Source: Alphaproteobacteria bacterium (GTDB taxonomy: Bacteria; Pseudomonadota; Alphaproteobacteria; Thalassobaculales; Thalassobaculaceae). From it: 42,343 nucleotides of DNA. Each line of letters opens with the position of its first letter. Within the stretch, counting starts at the first letter, position 1. The notes under the pieces are model-generated. The model was not told where the DNA came from and did not search any database. It was given only the letters and a program-made list of their open reading frames with translations. Below, one piece after another: positions 23,728-34,001 of the stretch. Where the stretch lies: assembly GCA_013203465.1 (NCBI GenBank), contig JABMNR010000145.1, positions 1-42,343 of the forward strand, given 5' to 3'. A program made the translations under genes and the position numbers.

Positions 23728-24495
23728 ATGGCTCATAGCGCGGTGTACCCGGATCTGAAGGGCCGGAGCGTGTTGATCACCGGCGGTGCCAGCGGCATTG
23801 GCGCCGAGATCGTCGCGCATTTTTGCGCCCAGGGAGCGTGTGTCGGCTTCGTTGATTTGGATGACACGGCGGCGGAAGCCTTGATTACGAACATACGCGG
23901 CGCCGGTCACGCGGCACCGGTCTTCGAGCCGTGCGATCTACGTGATATCGACGCGCTGCGCGCCGCCATCGGCCGTTTGCGTGAGCAGATCGGGCCAATC
24001 CGGGTGCTGGTGAACAACGCGGCAAACGACGAACGCCACGCGATCGACGATGTCACACCGGAATACTGGGACGACCGGCAGGCGGTGAACCTTCGGCATC
24101 AGTTCTTCGCCACCCAAGCCGTGTGGCACGACATGCGTGATACCGGTGGCGGCGCCATCGTCAACATGGGTTCGGTCTCATGGTTGATCGGCCAGGGCGG
24201 CATGCCCGCCTACTCCGCCGCCAAGGCGGCCGTCGCCGGGCTGACCCGGTCGCTGGCCCGCGATCTTGGCGAGCACGGCATCCGGGTGAACTCCGTGCTG
24301 CCCGGCTGGATCATGACCGAGCGTCAGGTCACGAAATGGCTGACCCCGGAGGGCGAGGCGGATTTGATGCGCAACCAATGCCTCAAGCGTAAGCTCTACC
24401 CGGCCGACATCGCCCGCGTGGTGCTGTTCTTCGCCTCCGAGGCATCGTCCGCCTGCACCAACCAGAACTACATCGCCGACGGGGGCTGGGTGTGA
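23728..24495 (+). CDS. Short-chain dehydrogenase/reductase paired with a lactonase
   Basis: This is a 255-residue classical SDR with TGGASGIG cofactor motif, an Asp ending the second strand (FVDLDD, so NAD-type), NNAAN, and a catalytic Ser 13 residues before Tyr in YSAAK. The ATG at 23728 follows AAGGAG by eight bases. Its stop overlaps the start of the SMP-30 gene (GTGA). SDR plus SMP-30 lactonase is the usual arrangement for oxidation of a sugar or hydroxy-aldehyde to a lactone followed by hydrolysis. That pairing is my basis for the proposed role; the actual sugar is unknown. It could instead share the hyu pathway. Confidence 0.9.
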   Translation: MAHSAVYPDLKGRSVLITGGASGIGAEIVAHFCAQGACVGFVDLDDTAAEALITNIRGAGHAAPVFEPCDLRDIDALRAAIGRLREQIGPIRVLVNNAANDERHAIDDVTPEYWDDRQAVNLRHQFFATQAVWHDMRDTGGGAIVNMGSVSWLIGQGGMPAYSAAKAAVAGLTRSLARDLGEHGIRVNSVLPGWIMTERQVTKWLTPEGEADLMRNQCLKRKLYPADIARVVLFFASEASSACTNQNYIADGGWV

Positions 24496-25385
24496 CGGCC
24501 GGCACCGACGCGCCCGATATCATCTGCCTGGACCCGGCGAACGCGATCCTGGGCGAGGGACCGGTCTGGGATGCGGCGGAGAACGCGCTCTGGTGGGTCG
24601 ACATCAAACGCCCGGAATTGCGGCGTTACGATGCGACAACAGGCGCGGTCGAAACCTGGCGGGCACCCGAGCGGATCGGCTGCGTCATACCCACACGAAC
24701 GCCACGGCGGTTCATCGCCGGGCTGAAATCAGGCCTCGCCGTCGTCAAGCCGGCCGAGGATGGCGCTCTGTCCGTCGACTATGTCGCCCGGCCGGATGCC
24801 GAACACCCGACCAACCGGTTCAATGACGGCAAGGCTGATCCGGCCGGCCGGCTCTGGGTTGGTGGCATGGACGACGAGGAGCGCGATGCCACCGGCTACC
24901 TCTATCGTGTGATGCCCGATCTGAGCTACGCCGCGATGGACGGTCCCTACGCCGTGACCAATGGCCCGGCGATCAGCGGCGACGGCCGCGTGCTGTATCA
25001 TACCGACACGCTTGGCCGGACGATCTGGCGGTTTGATCTAGGGTCAGACGGGGCCTTGGCCAACAAGAGCCGGTTTGTCGTGTTCGACGATCCGGGCTGG
25101 GGCCATCCCGATGGCTCGACCGTCGATGCGGCCGGGTTTCTGTGGGTCGCGCATTGGGGCGGCGGGCGCGTCACCCGTTTCACGCCTGATGGAACGCTCG
25201 ATCGGGTCATCCCGGTTCCCGCCCGGCAGGTGACCTCCTGTGTGTTCGGTGGACCGGACCTGCGGGATCTCTACATCACCTCCGCCGCTGTCGGCCTCCC
25301 GGACCCGGCCGATGGGATAGACGGTGCCTTGTTTCGCTGCCGCCCCGGCCCACAAGGCGTCCCGGTCGCGCGGTTCCTCGGCTGA
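24492..25385 (+). CDS. SMP-30/gluconolactonase family lactonase
   Basis: This is a 297-residue six-bladed beta-propeller hydrolase. The metal set of the family is visible: E22 in LGEGPVW, N111 in NRFNDGK, N157 in TNGPAIS and D207 in HPDGSTVD. These match the positions used for Ca/Zn binding in SMP-30 lactonases. The GTG at 24492 overlaps the SDR stop, so the two are coupled. It is expected to hydrolyse the lactone made by the preceding dehydrogenase. It is the last gene before the paa cluster. Confidence 0.9.
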   Translation: MTAGTDAPDIICLDPANAILGEGPVWDAAENALWWVDIKRPELRRYDATTGAVETWRAPERIGCVIPTRTPRRFIAGLKSGLAVVKPAEDGALSVDYVARPDAEHPTNRFNDGKADPAGRLWVGGMDDEERDATGYLYRVMPDLSYAAMDGPYAVTNGPAISGDGRVLYHTDTLGRTIWRFDLGSDGALANKSRFVVFDDPGWGHPDGSTVDAAGFLWVAHWGGGRVTRFTPDGTLDRVIPVPARQVTSCVFGGPDLRDLYITSAAVGLPDPADGIDGALFRCRPGPQGVPVARFLG

Positions 25386-25559
25386 CGGCCTCCGGGTCCA
25401 TTGTTCCGCGCGCTACTCGGTGGCATCGGAGGAAGAGCCGAGTATGGTCAACGCCCGCATCGCGCGATAACACCAAAGCTCTTTTGAAGCCGGGTTTCGT
25501 CAGCTACGAATAACCAACGAGCCGGTCAACTTACGCTAACGGATTACGGAGAGGCGGGC
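25386..25559 (+). promoter_or_regulatory. 174-base region before the phenylacetate genes
   Basis: No gene is seen. TACTCGG (25414-25420) and CCGAGTA (25438-25444) form a perfect 7-bp inverted repeat with a 17-base loop, which could be an operator or a weak terminator for the upstream operon; no T-run follows. The last 60 bases are AT-richer and probably hold the paaG promoter, but I find no clear -35/-10 pair. The TAACATGTTA palindrome found upstream of paaA does not occur here. Confidence 0.4.
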
Positions 25560-26351
25560 ATGAGCGAGACCGTGCGGGTCGATGATCGTGGGCCGTGGGT
25601 GATGGTGACGTTGAACCGTCCCGACAGCTTGAACGCCTTCACCGGGGAGATGTTGTCGGCCTTGCGCTCGGCACTCGAAGCCGCCGGCGAACGGCCGGAA
25701 TGCCGGGCGGTCTTGTTGACCGGCGCGGGGCGCGGGTTCTGCGCCGGTCAGGATTTGAGCGAAGTCGATCTGTCGCCCGAGGCGGGCGCTCCGGATCTCG
25801 GCAGGACCCTTGAGACCCATTACAATCCCTTGATCCGGTTGATCCGCGGCATGGCGAAGCCGGTGGTCTGTGCCGTCAACGGCGTGGCAGCCGGTGCCGG
25901 GGCCAATCTGGCGCTGAGCTGCGATATCGTGCTGGCGGCGGACAGCGCGCGTTTCATCCAGGCGTTTTCCAAGATCGGCCTGATCCCCGACGCCGGTGGC
26001 AGTTGGGCCCTGGCCCGGCTGGTCGGCGAAGCGCGGGCCAAGGCGCTGGCCTTCACCGCCGAGCCCTTGGCCGCGTCCGTCGCCGCCGATTGGGGGTTGA
26101 TCTGGAAGGCGGTCGCCGACGACGCGTTGATGGCGGAGGCGGAAGCGCTTACCGCGCGACTGGCCGACGGGCCGACGGTCGGACTTGGCCTGACCAAGCA
26201 GGCGATCCAGGAAGCAACGATCAATGCCCTGGATGTACAGCTTGACCGCGAGGTGGACTATCAACGCCGCGCCGGCCGGACGCCGGATTTCCGGGAAGGG
26301 GTAAACGCCTTTCTGGAAAAGCGGGTGCCCACGTTCACCGGGCGGGCCTGA
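25560..26351 (+). CDS. paaG: Ring-1,2-epoxyphenylacetyl-CoA isomerase (PaaG-like enoyl-CoA hydratase family)
   Basis: This is a 263-residue crotonase-fold enzyme that in the phenylacetate pathway converts the ring epoxide to oxepin-CoA. The candidate catalytic Asp is D144 in KIGLIPDAGG, matching the IPDSGG region of PaaG. Oxyanion-hole segments are FCAGQDL (residues 60-66) and GVAAGAGANLAL. GGAGAGG lies about six bases upstream of the ATG. The cluster holds no other crotonase, so PaaG is a better fit than PaaF, which lacks the IPD motif at this place. It is followed two bases later by paaI. Confidence 0.9.
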   Translation: MSETVRVDDRGPWVMVTLNRPDSLNAFTGEMLSALRSALEAAGERPECRAVLLTGAGRGFCAGQDLSEVDLSPEAGAPDLGRTLETHYNPLIRLIRGMAKPVVCAVNGVAAGAGANLALSCDIVLAADSARFIQAFSKIGLIPDAGGSWALARLVGEARAKALAFTAEPLAASVAADWGLIWKAVADDALMAEAEALTARLADGPTVGLGLTKQAIQEATINALDVQLDREVDYQRRAGRTPDFREGVNAFLEKRVPTFTGRA

Positions 26352-26353
26352 GC

Positions 26354-26818
26354 ATGACGGTCGCCAATAGGCTGACCCCAGACGCCTTGGCCAAGGCCTG
26401 CGCCGAGGTCATGGGGGCCCAGGACAGCGCCTCGGCGCATCTGGGGGTGTCGCTCGATCACGTGGCCCCGGGCGAGGCTCGGACATCGATGACCATTGAA
26501 GCGCACCACACCAACGGTCACGGCATCTGCCACGGCGGGTTCATCTTCACCCTGGCCGACACCGCCTTCGCCTTCGCCTGCAACAGCTACAACAACCGGG
26601 TCGTCGCCCAGCAGGCTTCCATTACCTTTTTGGCGCCCGGCAAGCTCGGCGAGCGGATGATCGCGGAGGCGCGGGAGGTCGCCCGTGCCGGGCGAAACGG
26701 CATCTATGACGTCCGGGTGAGCAATCAGCACGGTGAGCGGATCGCCGAGTTCCGGGGACACTCCCGAACCATCGAGGGAACCCACCTTCCAACAACCAGC
26801 GACCGACAAAACGTCTGA
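26354..26818 (+). CDS. paaI: Phenylacetate-pathway hotdog thioesterase
   Basis: This is a 154-residue hotdog-fold acyl-CoA thioesterase. The signature HHTNGHGICHGGFIFTLAD (residues 51-69) has the expected Asp-containing helix (D69). In the pathway it rescues CoA from dead-end CoA esters formed after ring epoxidation. The length and motif fit PaaI closely. It lies between paaG and paaK with a 2-base gap upstream. Confidence 0.92.
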   Translation: MTVANRLTPDALAKACAEVMGAQDSASAHLGVSLDHVAPGEARTSMTIEAHHTNGHGICHGGFIFTLADTAFAFACNSYNNRVVAQQASITFLAPGKLGERMIAEAREVARAGRNGIYDVRVSNQHGERIAEFRGHSRTIEGTHLPTTSDRQNV

Positions 26819-26842
26819 CGGCCCGGGATCGAGGAGGCAGGA

Positions 26843-28153
26843 ATGAGAGATTTGGCGCCACATCGACGCGATCTCGACCCGATCGAAATCGCCTCCCGCG
26901 ACGCGATCGAGGCGCTGCAGCTGGAGCGGCTCAGGTGGTCGTTGAACCACGCCTACACCAACGTCCCGCATTACCGGTCGGCGTTCGACGCGGCGGGGGT
27001 GCATCCCGACGATCTGAAGGCCCTGACTGACCTGGCGACATTTCCGTTCACCACCAAGCAGGACTTGCGGGAGAACTATCCCTTTGGCATGTTCGCGGTG
27101 CCGCGCGAGCGCATCGTGCGCGTGCATGCCTCCTCCGGCACCACCGGCAAGCCGACGGTGGTCGGCTACACTCAGCGCGATATCGAGACCTGGGCCGAGG
27201 TGGTGGCGCGCTCGATGCGGGCGTCGGGCACCCGGCCGGGCGACATGGTGCATATCGCGTATGGCTACGGGTTGTTCACCGGCGGGCTCGGCGCGCATTA
27301 CGGCGCCGAACGGCTGGGTTGCACGGTGATCCCAATCTCTGGCGGCATGACCGCGCGCCAGGTCACGCTGATCGAGGATTTCCGTCCGTCCACGATCATG
27401 GTGACGCCGTCCTACATGCTGTCGATCCTCGACGAATACCGCGCCCAGGGCCTCGATCCGCGCGTCAGTCCGCTAGAGGTCGGCATCTTCGGCGCCGAGC
27501 CTTGGACCAACGCGATGCGGGCCGAGGTCGAGGAGGCGTTCGACATGCACGCGGTCGATATCTACGGGTTGTCGGAGGTCATCGGTCCCGGCGTCGCCAA
27601 TGAGTGCGTCGAGACCAAGGATGGGCTGCACATCTGGGAGGATCATTTCTATCCCGAGGTGGTCGATCCGGAGACCGGCGCGCCGGTCGCCGAGGGCGAG
27701 CGGGGCGAACTGGTGTTCACCTCGCTGACCAAGGAAGCGTTCCCGATCGTCCGCTACCGGACGCGGGACCTGACCCGGCTGCTGCCCGGCACGGCACGCA
27801 GCATGCGGCGCATGGAAAAGGTCACCGGGCGCTCGGACGACATGATCATTCTGCGCGGCGTGAACGTGTTCCCGACGCAGATCGAGGAGATGCTGCTCGG
27901 CGTTTCGGAGTTGAGCCCGCATTTTCAGATCGAGCTGGTCCGGCGCGGCCGCATGGACGCGATGATCGTGCATGTCGAGGCGGCCGAGGGGGTTGATCTC
28001 GATCAGGCGCGAACGGTGGGAGCCGGGGCACTGGCGGGCCGCATCAAGAACATCATCGGGGTGTCGGCGCAGGTATCGGTCAATCCCGCCGGCGGGGTGG
28101 CGCGCAGTCAGGGCAAGGCGGTGCGGGTGGTTGATAACCGAACGAAAGCCTAG
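26843..28153 (+). CDS. paaK: Phenylacetate-CoA ligase
   Basis: This is a 436-residue AMP-forming ligase that activates phenylacetate to phenylacetyl-CoA, the entry step. It shows the P-loop SSGTTGKP (residues 97-104), the YGLSEV motif, and the C-terminal GVNVFPTQIEEM segment typical of PaaK. It has the RTRDLTRL adenylate-binding segment. The start ATG follows GAGGAGG by eight bases. The paaX gene begins four bases after its stop, so ligase and regulator are probably co-transcribed. Confidence 0.95.
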   Translation: MRDLAPHRRDLDPIEIASRDAIEALQLERLRWSLNHAYTNVPHYRSAFDAAGVHPDDLKALTDLATFPFTTKQDLRENYPFGMFAVPRERIVRVHASSGTTGKPTVVGYTQRDIETWAEVVARSMRASGTRPGDMVHIAYGYGLFTGGLGAHYGAERLGCTVIPISGGMTARQVTLIEDFRPSTIMVTPSYMLSILDEYRAQGLDPRVSPLEVGIFGAEPWTNAMRAEVEEAFDMHAVDIYGLSEVIGPGVANECVETKDGLHIWEDHFYPEVVDPETGAPVAEGERGELVFTSLTKEAFPIVRYRTRDLTRLLPGTARSMRRMEKVTGRSDDMIILRGVNVFPTQIEEMLLGVSELSPHFQIELVRRGRMDAMIVHVEAAEGVDLDQARTVGAGALAGRIKNIIGVSAQVSVNPAGGVARSQGKAVRVVDNRTKA

Positions 28154-28157
28154 GGGC

Positions 28158-29072
28158 GTGTCGAAACGCCTGTCTTCCGCCGGTAATGATGATGCCGAGC
28201 AGGTCTTGGAGCGGCTGGCCGACCGGCTGCACGCGGGGGACCGGCTGCGGGTGTGGTCGATCATCATCACCGTGTTCGGCGACGCGGTGGTGCCGCGCGG
28301 CGGCACGGTCGCCTTAACGGCGTTGCAGGCGATCACCGCGCGCCTGCGCATCGAGCCGGGAGCGGTTCGAGCGGCGATGTCGCGACTGGTCCGCGATGGC
28401 TGGATCACCCGCCGTAAGGTCGGCCGCCGCAGCTTTTACCAACTGACGCCCGAGAGCTTGGAAGAGGTGGTGGCGGCGTCCCGGCGGATCTACGCGCCGG
28501 AGGCCGCGTCGGAGGCCGCGCGCGTCACCCTTGCGGTGATTGAGAACGGCGCCAATGAGAGACGTGACCGCCAGCACGAGGCCCTGATGCGGGTGGGTTT
28601 CGCGCGGGTCGATGGCGGCACCTATGTGCGTGCTTGGGGAAAAGACGCCGTCCCGCCTGATCTCTCGACGGCCGACGCGTTGATCTTGGATACGGCGGTG
28701 CCCGGGGTGCCTATGTGGTTGCGCGACACGCTATCGCCGCCTGATACCGCGCGGGCCTACGAGGCCTTGATCGACGCGTACACTCCGCTGGACGAGGCCC
28801 TGGCCGCCGGTGCCGCGCTGTCGCCGCTCGATGCAATGGCGGCGCGGACCTTGCTGATCCATGATTGGCGCCGCACCCTGTTGCGCGACCATGATCTTCC
28901 GGCCGGGTTTCGGGCCGAGAACTGGCCGGGCGCTCGCGCCCGTCGGCTTGTGCGCGAACTTTACGAGCGGCTATGGCCGTTGAGCGAGCGCTGGTTGGAT
29001 GGTTGTGACGGCGGCGGGGACGGCCCGTTGCCACCGGCGAGCGCATCGGCGCGCACGCGCTTTGGCGCGTGA
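28158..29072 (+). CDS. paaX: Phenylacetate-responsive regulator of the PaaX family
   Basis: This is a 304-residue GntR-like repressor. The N-terminal winged helix (about residues 25-95) ends with the family hallmark SRLVRDGWITRRKVGRRSFYQLT. The central and C-terminal PaaX domains follow (YGF-like LMRVGFARVDGGTYVRAWG, and LLIHDWRRTLLRDHDLP). PaaX proteins bind phenylacetyl-CoA and repress paa genes. I chose the GTG at 28158, just after the paaK stop; the same frame is open upstream inside paaK, and the ribosome site is poor, so paaK-coupled translation is likely. The palindrome at 29082-29145 lies downstream of paaX, so this gene is upstream of its probable operator. Confidence 0.92.
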   Translation: MSKRLSSAGNDDAEQVLERLADRLHAGDRLRVWSIIITVFGDAVVPRGGTVALTALQAITARLRIEPGAVRAAMSRLVRDGWITRRKVGRRSFYQLTPESLEEVVAASRRIYAPEAASEAARVTLAVIENGANERRDRQHEALMRVGFARVDGGTYVRAWGKDAVPPDLSTADALILDTAVPGVPMWLRDTLSPPDTARAYEALIDAYTPLDEALAAGAALSPLDAMAARTLLIHDWRRTLLRDHDLPAGFRAENWPGARARRLVRELYERLWPLSERWLDGCDGGGDGPLPPASASARTRFGA

Positions 29073-29081
29073 CCGGGTGAA

Positions 29082-29145
29082 CCGCACTATAACATGTTAC
29101 CAAAATATCTGTGGAATGTATTTTTCGTAACATGTTATAGTGCGG
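29082..29145. promoter_or_regulatory. 64-bp hyphenated palindrome, candidate PaaX operator before paaA
   Basis: The perfect 19-bp arms CCGCACTATAACATGTTAC (29082-29100) and GTAACATGTTATAGTGCGG (29127-29145) flank a 26-base AT-rich spacer. Each arm contains the palindrome TAACATGTTA, 38 bases apart. The right arm holds TATAGT (29136-29141), a -10 candidate. No good -35 was found at the usual distance. The paaA ATG is 21 bases beyond. Its position beside paaX points to a regulator binding both halves, with looping or cooperative binding possible. Confidence 0.85.
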
Positions 29146-29166
29146 CGCTATGTGGAGGGCAGGCGA

Positions 29167-30159
29167 ATGTATGCGCAGGGCTTGATTGGCGCCGATGCGG
29201 CGACGACGGAGGACGCGGCGTTCCTTGAGCGCTTCCAGGCGCGGATCGACGCCGAGGAGAAGATCGAGCCGAACGACCCGATGCCGGCCGGCTACCGCAA
29301 GACGCTGATCCGCCAGATCGGCCAGCACGCTCATTCCGAAATCGTCGGCATGTTGCCGGAGGGTAACTGGATCACCCGGGCGCCGTCGCTGCGGCGCAAG
29401 GCGGCGCTGCTCGCCAAAGTGCAAGACGAAGGCGGGCACGGGCTCTATCTCTACGCCGCCGCCGAAACCCTGGGGGTGACGCGGGATCAGATGACCGAGG
29501 AGCTGTTGAGCGGCAAGGCCAAGTATTCCTCGATCTTCAACTACCCGACCCCGACCTGGGCCGATATCGGCGCGATCGGCTGGCTGGTCGACGGGGCCGC
29601 GATCATGAACCAGATTCCGCTATGCCGCTGCTCCTATGGCCCCTACGCCCGCGCCATGATCCGAGTGTGCAAGGAGGAGAGCTTTCACCAGCGCCAGGGT
29701 TACGAGATCATGATGACCTTGGCGCGGGGCGCTCCGGCGCAGAAGGACATGGCGCAGGACGCCTTGAATCGTTGGTGGTGGCCGTCGCTGGTGATGTTCG
29801 GCCCGCCGGATTCGGACAGCGTGCACGGCGATCAATCGATGGCTTGGAAGATCAAGCGCTTCACTAATGACGAGCTGCGCCGCAAATTCATCAACGCCAC
29901 GGTGCCGCAGGCCGAGTTCATCGACCTGACGGTCCCGGACCCCGATCTGAGGTGGAACGACGACACCCAGAGCTATGAGCATGGGCCGATCGACTGGGAT
30001 GAGTTCTGGCGGGTGGTGAAGGGCCATGGGCAGATGAACCGGGACCGTATCGCCGCCCGCCGCAAGGCTTGGGAGGATGGCGCCTGGGTTCGTGACGCCG
30101 CCGTCGCTCATGGCGAGAAGCGTCGTACCCGCCATACAGCCGCGCTCGCGGCGGAGTGA
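29167..30159 (+). CDS. paaA: 1,2-phenylacetyl-CoA epoxidase, catalytic subunit A
   Basis: This is a 330-residue di-iron oxygenase subunit that epoxidises the ring of phenylacetyl-CoA. Two iron-binding ExxH motifs are visible: E88-x-x-H91 (DEGGH) and E171-x-x-H174 (EESFH). The ATG at 29167 was chosen because GGAGGG lies seven bases upstream. An upstream GTG at 29140 is in frame but lies within the operator palindrome. It forms the catalytic heteromer with PaaC, with PaaB as bridging subunit and PaaE as reductase. It is about 20 residues longer than the E. coli protein at the C-terminus. Confidence 0.96.
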
Positions 30160-31722: not shown

Positions 31723-32802
31723 GTGGCGGCGTCGTTTCATTCCCTGACCGTGAGCAAGATCGACCGCCAGACGCCGGATGCGGTGGCGGTTTCGTTCGAT
31801 CTGCCGCTGGATGCCGCGGAGGCGTTCGCGTTCCGGCCGGGTCAGTACGTCACCTTGCGGACGAAGATCGACGGGCGCGACGTCCGCCGCCCGTATTCGA
31901 TCTGCTCGGTGCCGGAGTCCGGGACGCTGACGGTCGGTGTGAAGCGGGTCGACGGCGGCGCGTTCTCGACCTTGGCGAATACCCGACTTGCCGTGGGTGA
32001 CCGCTTGGACGTGATGCCGCCGGACGGGCGGTTCGGCGTCAAGATCGGCGGCGTCCACGACTACCTGCTGATCGCCGCCGGCTCGGGCATCACCCCGATG
32101 ATGTCGATCGCCCGGACGGTGCTGGAGCGTGAGCCGGAAAGCCGGGTAACGCTGCTGTTCGGCAATCGCGACACCGGCTCGATCATGTTCCGCGACGCGT
32201 TGGACGATCTGAAGGATCGCTTTCTGGGGCGTCTGGCGGTGTTGCATTGCCTGAGCCGCGAGACCCACGCGGTCGAGCTGCTGAACGGCCGGATCGACGG
32301 CGCGCGGGTGCGGGATCTGGCGGCGCGCGGGATCATCGATCCGCTGGATGCCGACGCGATCTTTCTCTGCGGGCCGGGTGGGATGATCGACGACGTATCG
32401 GAAACCCTCCGCGCTCTGGGAGTCGTGGCGGCGGTGATCAGAACGGAACGCTTCACACCCGCCGATGACGCGCCGGCGGCGCCCGTCATCACCGAGGCGA
32501 CGCGGACGCTGACCCGCGAGGGGGTTGCGGTCGACGCGATCCTGGACGGCGTGCGGCGTCATTTCGTGATGAGTGATCCGCAAACCAGCGTTTTGGACGC
32601 GGCACGGGATGCCGGCATCGAGCTGCCGTTTTCCTGCGCCGGCGGCATGTGCTGCACCTGCCGTTGCCGGATCGTCGAGGGCGCGACGGAGATGGCGGTG
32701 AACTATTCGCTTGAGGCTTGGGAGATCGACGCCGGGTTCACCCTGGCCTGCCAGTCGCGGCCGACCAGCGAACGGCTTGTGCTCGATTTCGACGCGGTAT
32801 AA
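31723..32802 (+). CDS. paaE: 1,2-phenylacetyl-CoA epoxidase reductase subunit
   Basis: This is a 359-residue flavin and iron-sulfur reductase that passes electrons from NADPH to PaaAC. It has an FAD domain with RPYSICS, an NAD(P) domain with GSGITPMMS and CGPGGM, and a C-terminal plant-type 2Fe-2S domain with C305, C310, C313 and C343. I chose the GTG at 31723, five bases after GAGG; a GTG one codon earlier is equally possible. The length fits E. coli PaaE (356). It is the last recognisable paa gene in the window. Confidence 0.95.
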   Translation: MAASFHSLTVSKIDRQTPDAVAVSFDLPLDAAEAFAFRPGQYVTLRTKIDGRDVRRPYSICSVPESGTLTVGVKRVDGGAFSTLANTRLAVGDRLDVMPPDGRFGVKIGGVHDYLLIAAGSGITPMMSIARTVLEREPESRVTLLFGNRDTGSIMFRDALDDLKDRFLGRLAVLHCLSRETHAVELLNGRIDGARVRDLAARGIIDPLDADAIFLCGPGGMIDDVSETLRALGVVAAVIRTERFTPADDAPAAPVITEATRTLTREGVAVDAILDGVRRHFVMSDPQTSVLDAARDAGIELPFSCAGGMCCTCRCRIVEGATEMAVNYSLEAWEIDAGFTLACQSRPTSERLVLDFDAV

Positions 32803-32852
32803 CGCTAACCGTATCGCGACTATGCGATCGGGCACGCCGTGTTGAACCGTTC

Positions 32853-34001
32853 ATGACCAGTACCAAAATCCCCGCCGTCTTCATGCGCGGCGGTTCCAGC
32901 AAGGCGGTTGTGTTTCACGGACGCGATCTGCCGGCGGATCGCGCCGCGCGGGATGCGATCTTCCTGCATGTCCTCGGCAGCCCCGACCCCTATCAACGTC
33001 AGCTCGATGGCATGGGTGGCGGGCTGTCGTCGGTATCGAAGGCGGTGATCGTCGAGCCGTCAGCGCGGCCGGACGCCGACGTGGATTACACCTTCGCCCA
33101 GGTCTCGGTGGATCGGCCGGTGGTCGATTACGGGGCCAACTGTGGCAACATGTCGGCGGCGGTGGGCCCGTTCGCGGTCGATGAAGGTCTGGTCGCGGTG
33201 GCCGATGGTGAGGCCGTGGTCCGGGTGTACAACACCAACACCGACAAGCTTTATCACGCGCGGTTCCGGGCCGCCGACGGTGCGGCGGTCGAGGAGGGCG
33301 ATTTCGCCATCCCCGGCGTGTCGGGCACCGGGGCGCGGATCACCCTCGACTATCTCGATCCCGGCGGCGCGGCGACCAGCGCTCTGTTGCCCAGCGGATC
33401 GCCCCGCGACCGTCTGGAGGTCGACGGTGTGGGCTCGATCGAGGTGTCCCTGGTCGACGCGACCAACCCCGTGGTGTTCGTGATGGCGAGGGACGTCGGC
33501 TGTACGGCGACGGAGCCACCGGAACATCTGGAGGCCGATCCGACGGTGATGGCACGGCTCGACGCGATCCGCCGTGCCGGCGGCGTGGCGATGGGCATGG
33601 CTAAGGGCCCGGCGGCGGTCGGGCTCGCCAATCCCAAGGGGGCGATGCTCGGACCGGCGGCCGACTCCACGGCGATCGACGGCCGCGTCTACCCAGCCGA
33701 TACCCACGACCTGTCGATGCGGATCGTGTCGATGGAGCGGGTGCATCGGGCGGTCACACTGACCGGGGCGATGTGCACCGCCGTCGCCGCCCGGATCGAG
33801 GGGACGATCCCGCACGGGTTGGCGGGGAATCGCGCGCCGCTCCGGATCGGCAATCCCTCGGGCGTCCTGCCGGTCGAGGCCGAGGTGATCCGGCAACCCG
33901 ATGGCAGCTTCCACGCCCGCTCGGCGACGACCTATCGTACCCACCGCCGGCTCATGGAAGGCCAGGTGCTGGTGCCGATGCGGCTTTTATCGGCGCGGTA
34001 G
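32853..34001 (+). CDS. PrpF-family double-bond isomerase (aconitate/oxalomesaconate type)
   Basis: This is a 382-residue member of the PrpF family with the diaminopimelate-epimerase fold. Hallmarks are MRGGSSKAVVF, GGLSSVSKAV, GANCGNMSAAVGPFA and the later ANPKGAM segment. K63 and C97 match the catalytic Lys/Cys positions I recall from Shewanella PrpF (K73 and C107). The family shifts double bonds or proton positions in 2-methylaconitate, aconitate or 4-oxalomesaconate. It follows paaE by 50 bases, a gap that contains only a weak 5-bp hairpin (32813-32828), so it may be co-transcribed with paa. It ends eight bases from the convergent VWA gene. The substrate is unknown. Confidence 0.88.
   Translation: MTSTKIPAVFMRGGSSKAVVFHGRDLPADRAARDAIFLHVLGSPDPYQRQLDGMGGGLSSVSKAVIVEPSARPDADVDYTFAQVSVDRPVVDYGANCGNMSAAVGPFAVDEGLVAVADGEAVVRVYNTNTDKLYHARFRAADGAAVEEGDFAIPGVSGTGARITLDYLDPGGAATSALLPSGSPRDRLEVDGVGSIEVSLVDATNPVVFVMARDVGCTATEPPEHLEADPTVMARLDAIRRAGGVAMGMAKGPAAVGLANPKGAMLGPAADSTAIDGRVYPADTHDLSMRIVSMERVHRAVTLTGAMCTAVAARIEGTIPHGLAGNRAPLRIGNPSGVLPVEAEVIRQPDGSFHARSATTYRTHRRLMEGQVLVPMRLLSAR

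Follow-up and report, generated by a model that had tools for sequence, protein, structure and literature searches.

A predicted PaaX operator of the TGTTAC type between paaX and paaA in an alphaproteobacterial paa cluster

What protein, if any, reads the long inverted repeat that separates paaX from paaA in the 42,343 nucleotides analyzed here (the window)? A sequence-only reading proposed that a repressor acts at this site, took twin 10-bp palindromes within the arms as its mark, and suggested that the upstream paaGIK-X genes are controlled separately from paaA. The analysis below indicates that the repeat is very probably the operator through which PaaX, encoded by the neighboring gene, represses the paaABCDE promoter. 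The kind of switch is known, and the predicted recognition sequence is an alphaproteobacterial version that differs from the one in Escherichia coli.

Results

An exact inverted repeat between paaX and paaA

The exact 19-bp arms and their AT-rich spacer (Table 1) were confirmed from the sequence, and the arms lengthen inward to 24 bp once one mismatch is allowed. Each arm contains the 10-bp palindrome TAACATGTTA, found as claimed at 29090-29099 and 29128-29137, 38 bases apart. At this base composition, about 1e-4 repeats with perfect 19-bp arms and a spacer of 100 bases or less are expected per 42-kb window and 0.01 per genome, in agreement with the view that the repeat is stronger than chance. 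In the 4.48-Mb genome the palindrome has exactly two copies, both inside the repeat.

NCBIfam and Pfam models identify paaG, paaI, paaK and a PaaX-family regulator, followed by paaA, paaB, paaC and paaE; paaD was assigned by position only. The repeat begins 9 bases 3' of the paaX stop codon and ends 21 bases 5' of the likely paaA ATG (29167). Ten of 80 relatives share the gene order paaG-I-K-X-A-B-C-D(-E). An SMP-30/gluconolactonase-like gene precedes paaG (24492-25385) and a PrpF/4-oxalomesaconate tautomerase-like gene follows paaE (32718-34001), both on the same strand as the cluster. The genome yielded no full-length PaaZ with a score above its cut-off.

Table 1. Features of the paaX-paaA interval and the genes around it, in window coordinates.
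Feature	Position	Strand	Remarks
paaG-paaI-paaK	25560-28153	+	upstream, same direction; no PaaX box in front
paaX	28158-29072	+	PaaX-type regulator; stop 29070-29072; putative start GTG 28158
Left arm CCGCACTATAACATGTTAC	29082-29100		19 bp
Outer left extension CCGCACTATAAC	29082-29093		exact mirror of 29134-29145; not conserved
Left PaaX half-site ATGTTAC (predicted)	29094-29100	+	conservation in relatives
Spacer between arms	29101-29126		26 bases, AT-rich, 27% G+C
Putative -35 in spacer, degenerate	TGTGGA 29110-29115 or TGGAAT 29112-29117		TTGAC / TTGCAT in relatives
Right arm GTAACATGTTATAGTGCGG	29127-29145		19 bp, perfect inverted match to left arm
Right PaaX half-site GTAACAT, inverted (predicted)	29127-29133	+	conservation; N26 between TGTTAC and GTAACA
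Putative extended -10 of paaA promoter TGTTATAGT	29133-29141	+	place matches TATATT/TATTAT of relatives
Outer right extension GTTATAGTGCGG	29134-29145		mirror of left extension
Shine-Dalgarno-like GGAGGG of paaA	29154-29159	+	sequence
paaA	29167-30159	+	TIGR02156, 524 bits; first gene of paaABCDE; proposed operator target

The inner half of each arm is conserved

The intergenic stretch of relatives was taken from whole genomes and 80 named genome records; a single-protein search of genome contigs returned no loci, and an alignment query returned 80. The window carries an exact TGTTAC-N26-GTAACA box. Among the 69 relatives in which paaX is closely followed by paaA, 57 carry TGTTAC-N25-27-GTAACA in the interval between the two genes when up to two mismatches are allowed, compared to a mean of 1.02 and a maximum of 3 in shuffled intervals. 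Bradyrhizobium accounts for 37 of the 69. The box is found at the same stringency in 27 of the 32 loci outside this genus, which include Kiloniellaceae, Rhizobiaceae, Phyllobacteriaceae, Xanthobacteraceae, Nitrobacteraceae, Methylobacteriaceae, Stappiaceae and further families. With one mismatch or fewer, the pair occurs at N25-27 in 20 loci and elsewhere only in single loci at N10, N42 and N43. Exact TGTTAC/GTAACA pairs at N25-27 are present in L025/L054, L031, L064 and L086, and L028 carries ATGTTACGAAAA-N15-TTTTCGTAACAT. The commonest spacing in relatives is 27, compared to 26 in the window.

The sequence-only reading took absence of the palindrome from the paa promoters of close relatives as grounds for refutation. 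TAACATGTTA is absent from the paa promoters of relatives; what is conserved, in near-invariant columns, is the inner half ATGTTAC...GTAACAT, in which TGTTAC and GTAACA are separated by 25-27 bases. A genome search for TAACATGTTA-like sites returned nothing beyond background, since the 10-mer is not the conserved unit.

This pattern bears on the idea that a dimer of another regulator, such as the TetR-type PaaR, uses each TAACATGTTA as an operator in its own right, with two dimers on the promoter. An exact palindrome sits in each arm and nowhere else in the genome, the PaaR operators of Burkholderia are contiguous palindromes (PMC2770484, PMC9493321), and some genomes contain both PaaX and PaaR (PMC13186573). 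However, relatives that lack the outer palindrome half still keep the inner half and its spacing, TAACATGTTA is unlike the PaaR operator ACCGACCGGTCGGTT, and the adjoining regulator gene encodes PaaX. The published PaaR operator (PMC2770484) has no sequence match within 29082-29145. Two such dimers are a decidedly improbable account of the repeat. The earlier proposal of a repressor site stands as a candidate operator for paaA, likeliest PaaX's own, and the pair of 10-bp palindromes falls away as the recognition unit.

If transcripts run on from paaX into paaA, the repeat could act in them as an RNA hairpin that serves attenuation, processing or protection of the 3' end of the paaX portion. 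This reading would fit a predicted RNA fold of -41.5 kcal/mol (z -4.8) and a left arm that starts so close to the paaX stop. The repeat has no U-run and no terminator-like site, and relatives keep short arms only, with scattered fold values and a mean z near -2. The conserved columns are the letters of the half-sites and promoter. That the repeat acts as such a hairpin is judged very improbable, and the PaaX operator is the preferred reading.

Two further observations concern the relatives. L131, from a record titled Mycobacterium sp. KBS0706, has a PaaX that is a close sister of the Inquilinus limosus PaaX (L075) together with the alphaproteobacterial box; the organism name in the record is probably wrong. 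Several loci (L059, L062, L063, L065, L068, L071, L073 (Nitratireductor) and others) have paaI-paaK-paaX with no paaA following it within the retrieved flank, where no TGTTAC box with one mismatch or fewer was found either, so paaA and its operator are probably located elsewhere in these genomes.

The box overlaps a predicted promoter and has mirrored outer arms

The consensus of 51 N27 sites is TATGTTAC(A/G)(A/G)AAATATcTTGcAT...TAATTTTTGT(T/A)A(T/C)ATATT, with a -35-like TTG within the spacer and a -10-like TATATT that overlaps the right half-site. In the window the right half-site lies 33 bases from the paaA ATG and overlaps the putative -10, which places it at the predicted paaA promoter. 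The candidate -35 of the window is poor. Overlapping GTAACAT with TGTTATAGT, a -10 of the TGnTATAAT type, yields TAACATGTTA. The twin palindromes are thus most simply explained as the half-site GTAACAT running into the extended -10 TGTTATAGT, with the same letters mirrored on the other arm.

Outward symmetry beyond TGTTAC spans 13 bp in the window compared to 0-5 bp in relatives and 8 bp in one (L056). The 12 mirrored bases of the outer extensions have a chance probability of about 2e-7, and the extension that perfects the arms is specific to this genome. The arms of the Kiloniellaceae L056 box, GCACAATATGTTAC and GTAACATATTGTGC, have an 8-bp mirror extension that is absent from its sisters L054 and L055, apparently a second, independent case of operator arms turning perfect. 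Template switching, in which one arm is rewritten from the other, may be a simple explanation of the symmetry.

The mirror also creates a possible second promoter, TCCACA-18-TATAGT, that runs leftward from 29115 to 29086. It would produce a transcript antisense to the paaX 3' end and would be repressed by the same operator, alongside the PaaX function. It has the mirrored extended -10 TGTTATAGT, and a promoter scan picks out a site in this orientation (9 of 12 matches). Against it, the 4-kb region holds two promoter-like sites when 0.7 are expected by chance, the leftward site is not conserved, no left-facing gene is present, and arm-to-arm template switching could account for the symmetry, as the similar mirror of L056 and its absence from the sisters illustrate. 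An outer-arm promoter is considered unlikely. Slightly less credence goes to the fuller version, a perfect-mirror PaaX operator with an extended -10 on each side that fires rightward into paaABCDE and leftward as antisense to the paaX 3' end; the antisense transcript would then feed back on the repressor gene, which has no box of its own. The leftward promoter or the RNA hairpin could possibly be side effects or functions of the mirror.

PaaX type goes with half-site type

The paaX product matches PF07848 (N-terminal, 74.1 bits) and PF08223 (C-terminal, PaaX_C, 65.2 bits), both above the gathering scores, and is encoded by the only PaaX gene in the genome. It scores 191.9 bits against the TIGR02277 equivalog cut-off of 264.55 bits; this shortfall says little because E. 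coli PaaX was matched and likewise not reported over the cut-off. The central Cas2-like PaaX_M domain (PF20803) has no HMM match in the window protein and a weak one in E. coli PaaX; the corresponding segment appears in the model as a structured region. The AlphaFold model (pLDDT 88.5) is most similar to E. coli PaaX 8a39 (TM 0.78, E 1.2e-16), followed by Jannaschia 3l09.

The winged helix-turn-helix comprises residues 33-97 of the 28155-29069 translation, and S76 sits in the modelled recognition helix, residues 68-80. A recognition helix of the form (T/A)A(M/L)SRL goes with TGTTAC boxes in 27 alignment rows, the window included. In 10 rows F, L or Q replaces that serine (F/L/Q-R), and the boxes are TGATAC. 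The pairing of half-site type and helix type has zero exceptions among the boxed loci. In the alignment, E. coli PaaX has TALFRL at this position. The association maps to a single change on the PaaX tree and therefore counts as one coincidence, not as many independent ones; it is the coincidence that would be expected if PaaX reads the box.

The TGATAC-N26-28-GTATCA boxes are linked to PaaX genes of another alphaproteobacterial clade, five of which come from the GTDB family to which this genome belongs. The window PaaX groups with those of Tepidamorphus and rhizobia, at 47-49% identity, and is about 31-37% identical to PaaX from its own family. The own-family PaaX genes with a recognized box (L014, L015, L017-L019) are of the TGATAC type, and their paaA is divergent from paaI-paaX. 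This grouping suggests that the paa cluster was transferred or that paralogues were lost.

The box is found only in front of paaA

The genome has one exact copy of the operator. No second box with two mismatches or fewer was found elsewhere in the window. The claim that the motif has no second copy before paaG also held for the box: the best pair there has three mismatches and a non-standard spacing. A whole-genome search for spaced half-sites with up to three mismatches gave fewer matches than a reversed control, and one-mismatch pairs at N25 or N27 gave a few isolated matches, none recognized as a second operator. In the 80 relatives, no box with one mismatch or fewer was found within 3.5 kb upstream of paaX, so the arrangement with a box before paaA alone is shared. 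Given the lack of a box before paaG here and before paaX in relatives, paaGIKX is probably under separate control, and the earlier suggestion to this effect is compatible with the data. It is qualified by the interval between paaX and paaA, which has no terminator; no terminator-like site (GC-rich stem plus T run) was found in 25300-29300. Transcription may therefore continue from paaX into paaA, and PaaX on its downstream site might impede it.

Discussion

The conserved box, the E. coli-like geometry and the parallel difference in the recognition helix together argue that the repeat is a TGTTAC-subtype PaaX operator overlapping the predicted paaA promoter. A PaaX dimer would set its winged helices on ATGTTAC and GTAACAT, which share one face of the DNA at a distance of about 32-33 bp (three helical turns). 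With the right half-site over the -10 and the -35 inside the spacer, bound PaaX is proposed to exclude RNA polymerase, and it may also impede transcripts arriving from paaX. Phenylacetyl-CoA formed by PaaK would release PaaX. Transcription of paaGIK-paaX would start at its own upstream promoter, which has no PaaX box, so the ligase and the repressor are proposed to be present before induction.

From these results, a PaaX recognition sequence can be predicted for a large alphaproteobacterial group that includes Bradyrhizobium, Rhizobiaceae, Phyllobacteriaceae, Kiloniellaceae and others. A literature search covering papers, as distinct from curated regulon databases such as RegPrecise, brought up the operators of E. 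coli PaaX and Burkholderia PaaR and found no description of an alphaproteobacterial PaaX box. S76, which is F, L or Q in the other clade, is a candidate for the residue behind the switch in half-site letters.

The predicted operator can be compared with three systems. Burkholderia cenocepacia PaaR, a TetR protein, also acts at an inverted repeat within the core promoter of paaA, where phenylacetyl-CoA lifts its repression (PMC2770484, PMC9493321), but it belongs to another regulator family and its site is a contiguous 15-bp palindrome, ACCGACCGGTCGGTT. The TGATAC-N26-28-GTATCA clade (L014, L015, L017-L019, L041 and others) has boxes of the same geometry, linked to a PaaX gene and mostly to paa genes. 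It differs from the window in the third half-site letter and in having F, L or Q instead of S in the helix. Its boxes precede paaX instead of lying between this gene and paaA, and in L014-L019 paaA and paaI-paaX are divergently oriented. In E. coli, PaaX binds TGATTC(N27)GAATCA (PMC9493321), a sequence seen with one mismatch before paaA in MG1655. The E. coli paaA (Pa) and paaZ (Pz) operators are likewise long-spaced inverted hexamers, located upstream of paaA with the PaaX gene in the cluster (PMC9493321), and the 33-bp center-to-center distance of E. coli and N27 sites is matched by the window to within 1 bp. In contrast, the window has a single site with TGTTAC half-sites and N26. Its paaX immediately precedes the proposed target, is read in the same direction and lacks a box in front, whereas the E. 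coli Px promoter is reported to be repressed by PaaX (PMC9493321). The spacing and place agree with those of E. coli and the half-site letters do not, and the box is therefore a variant rather than an E. coli-type PaaX box.
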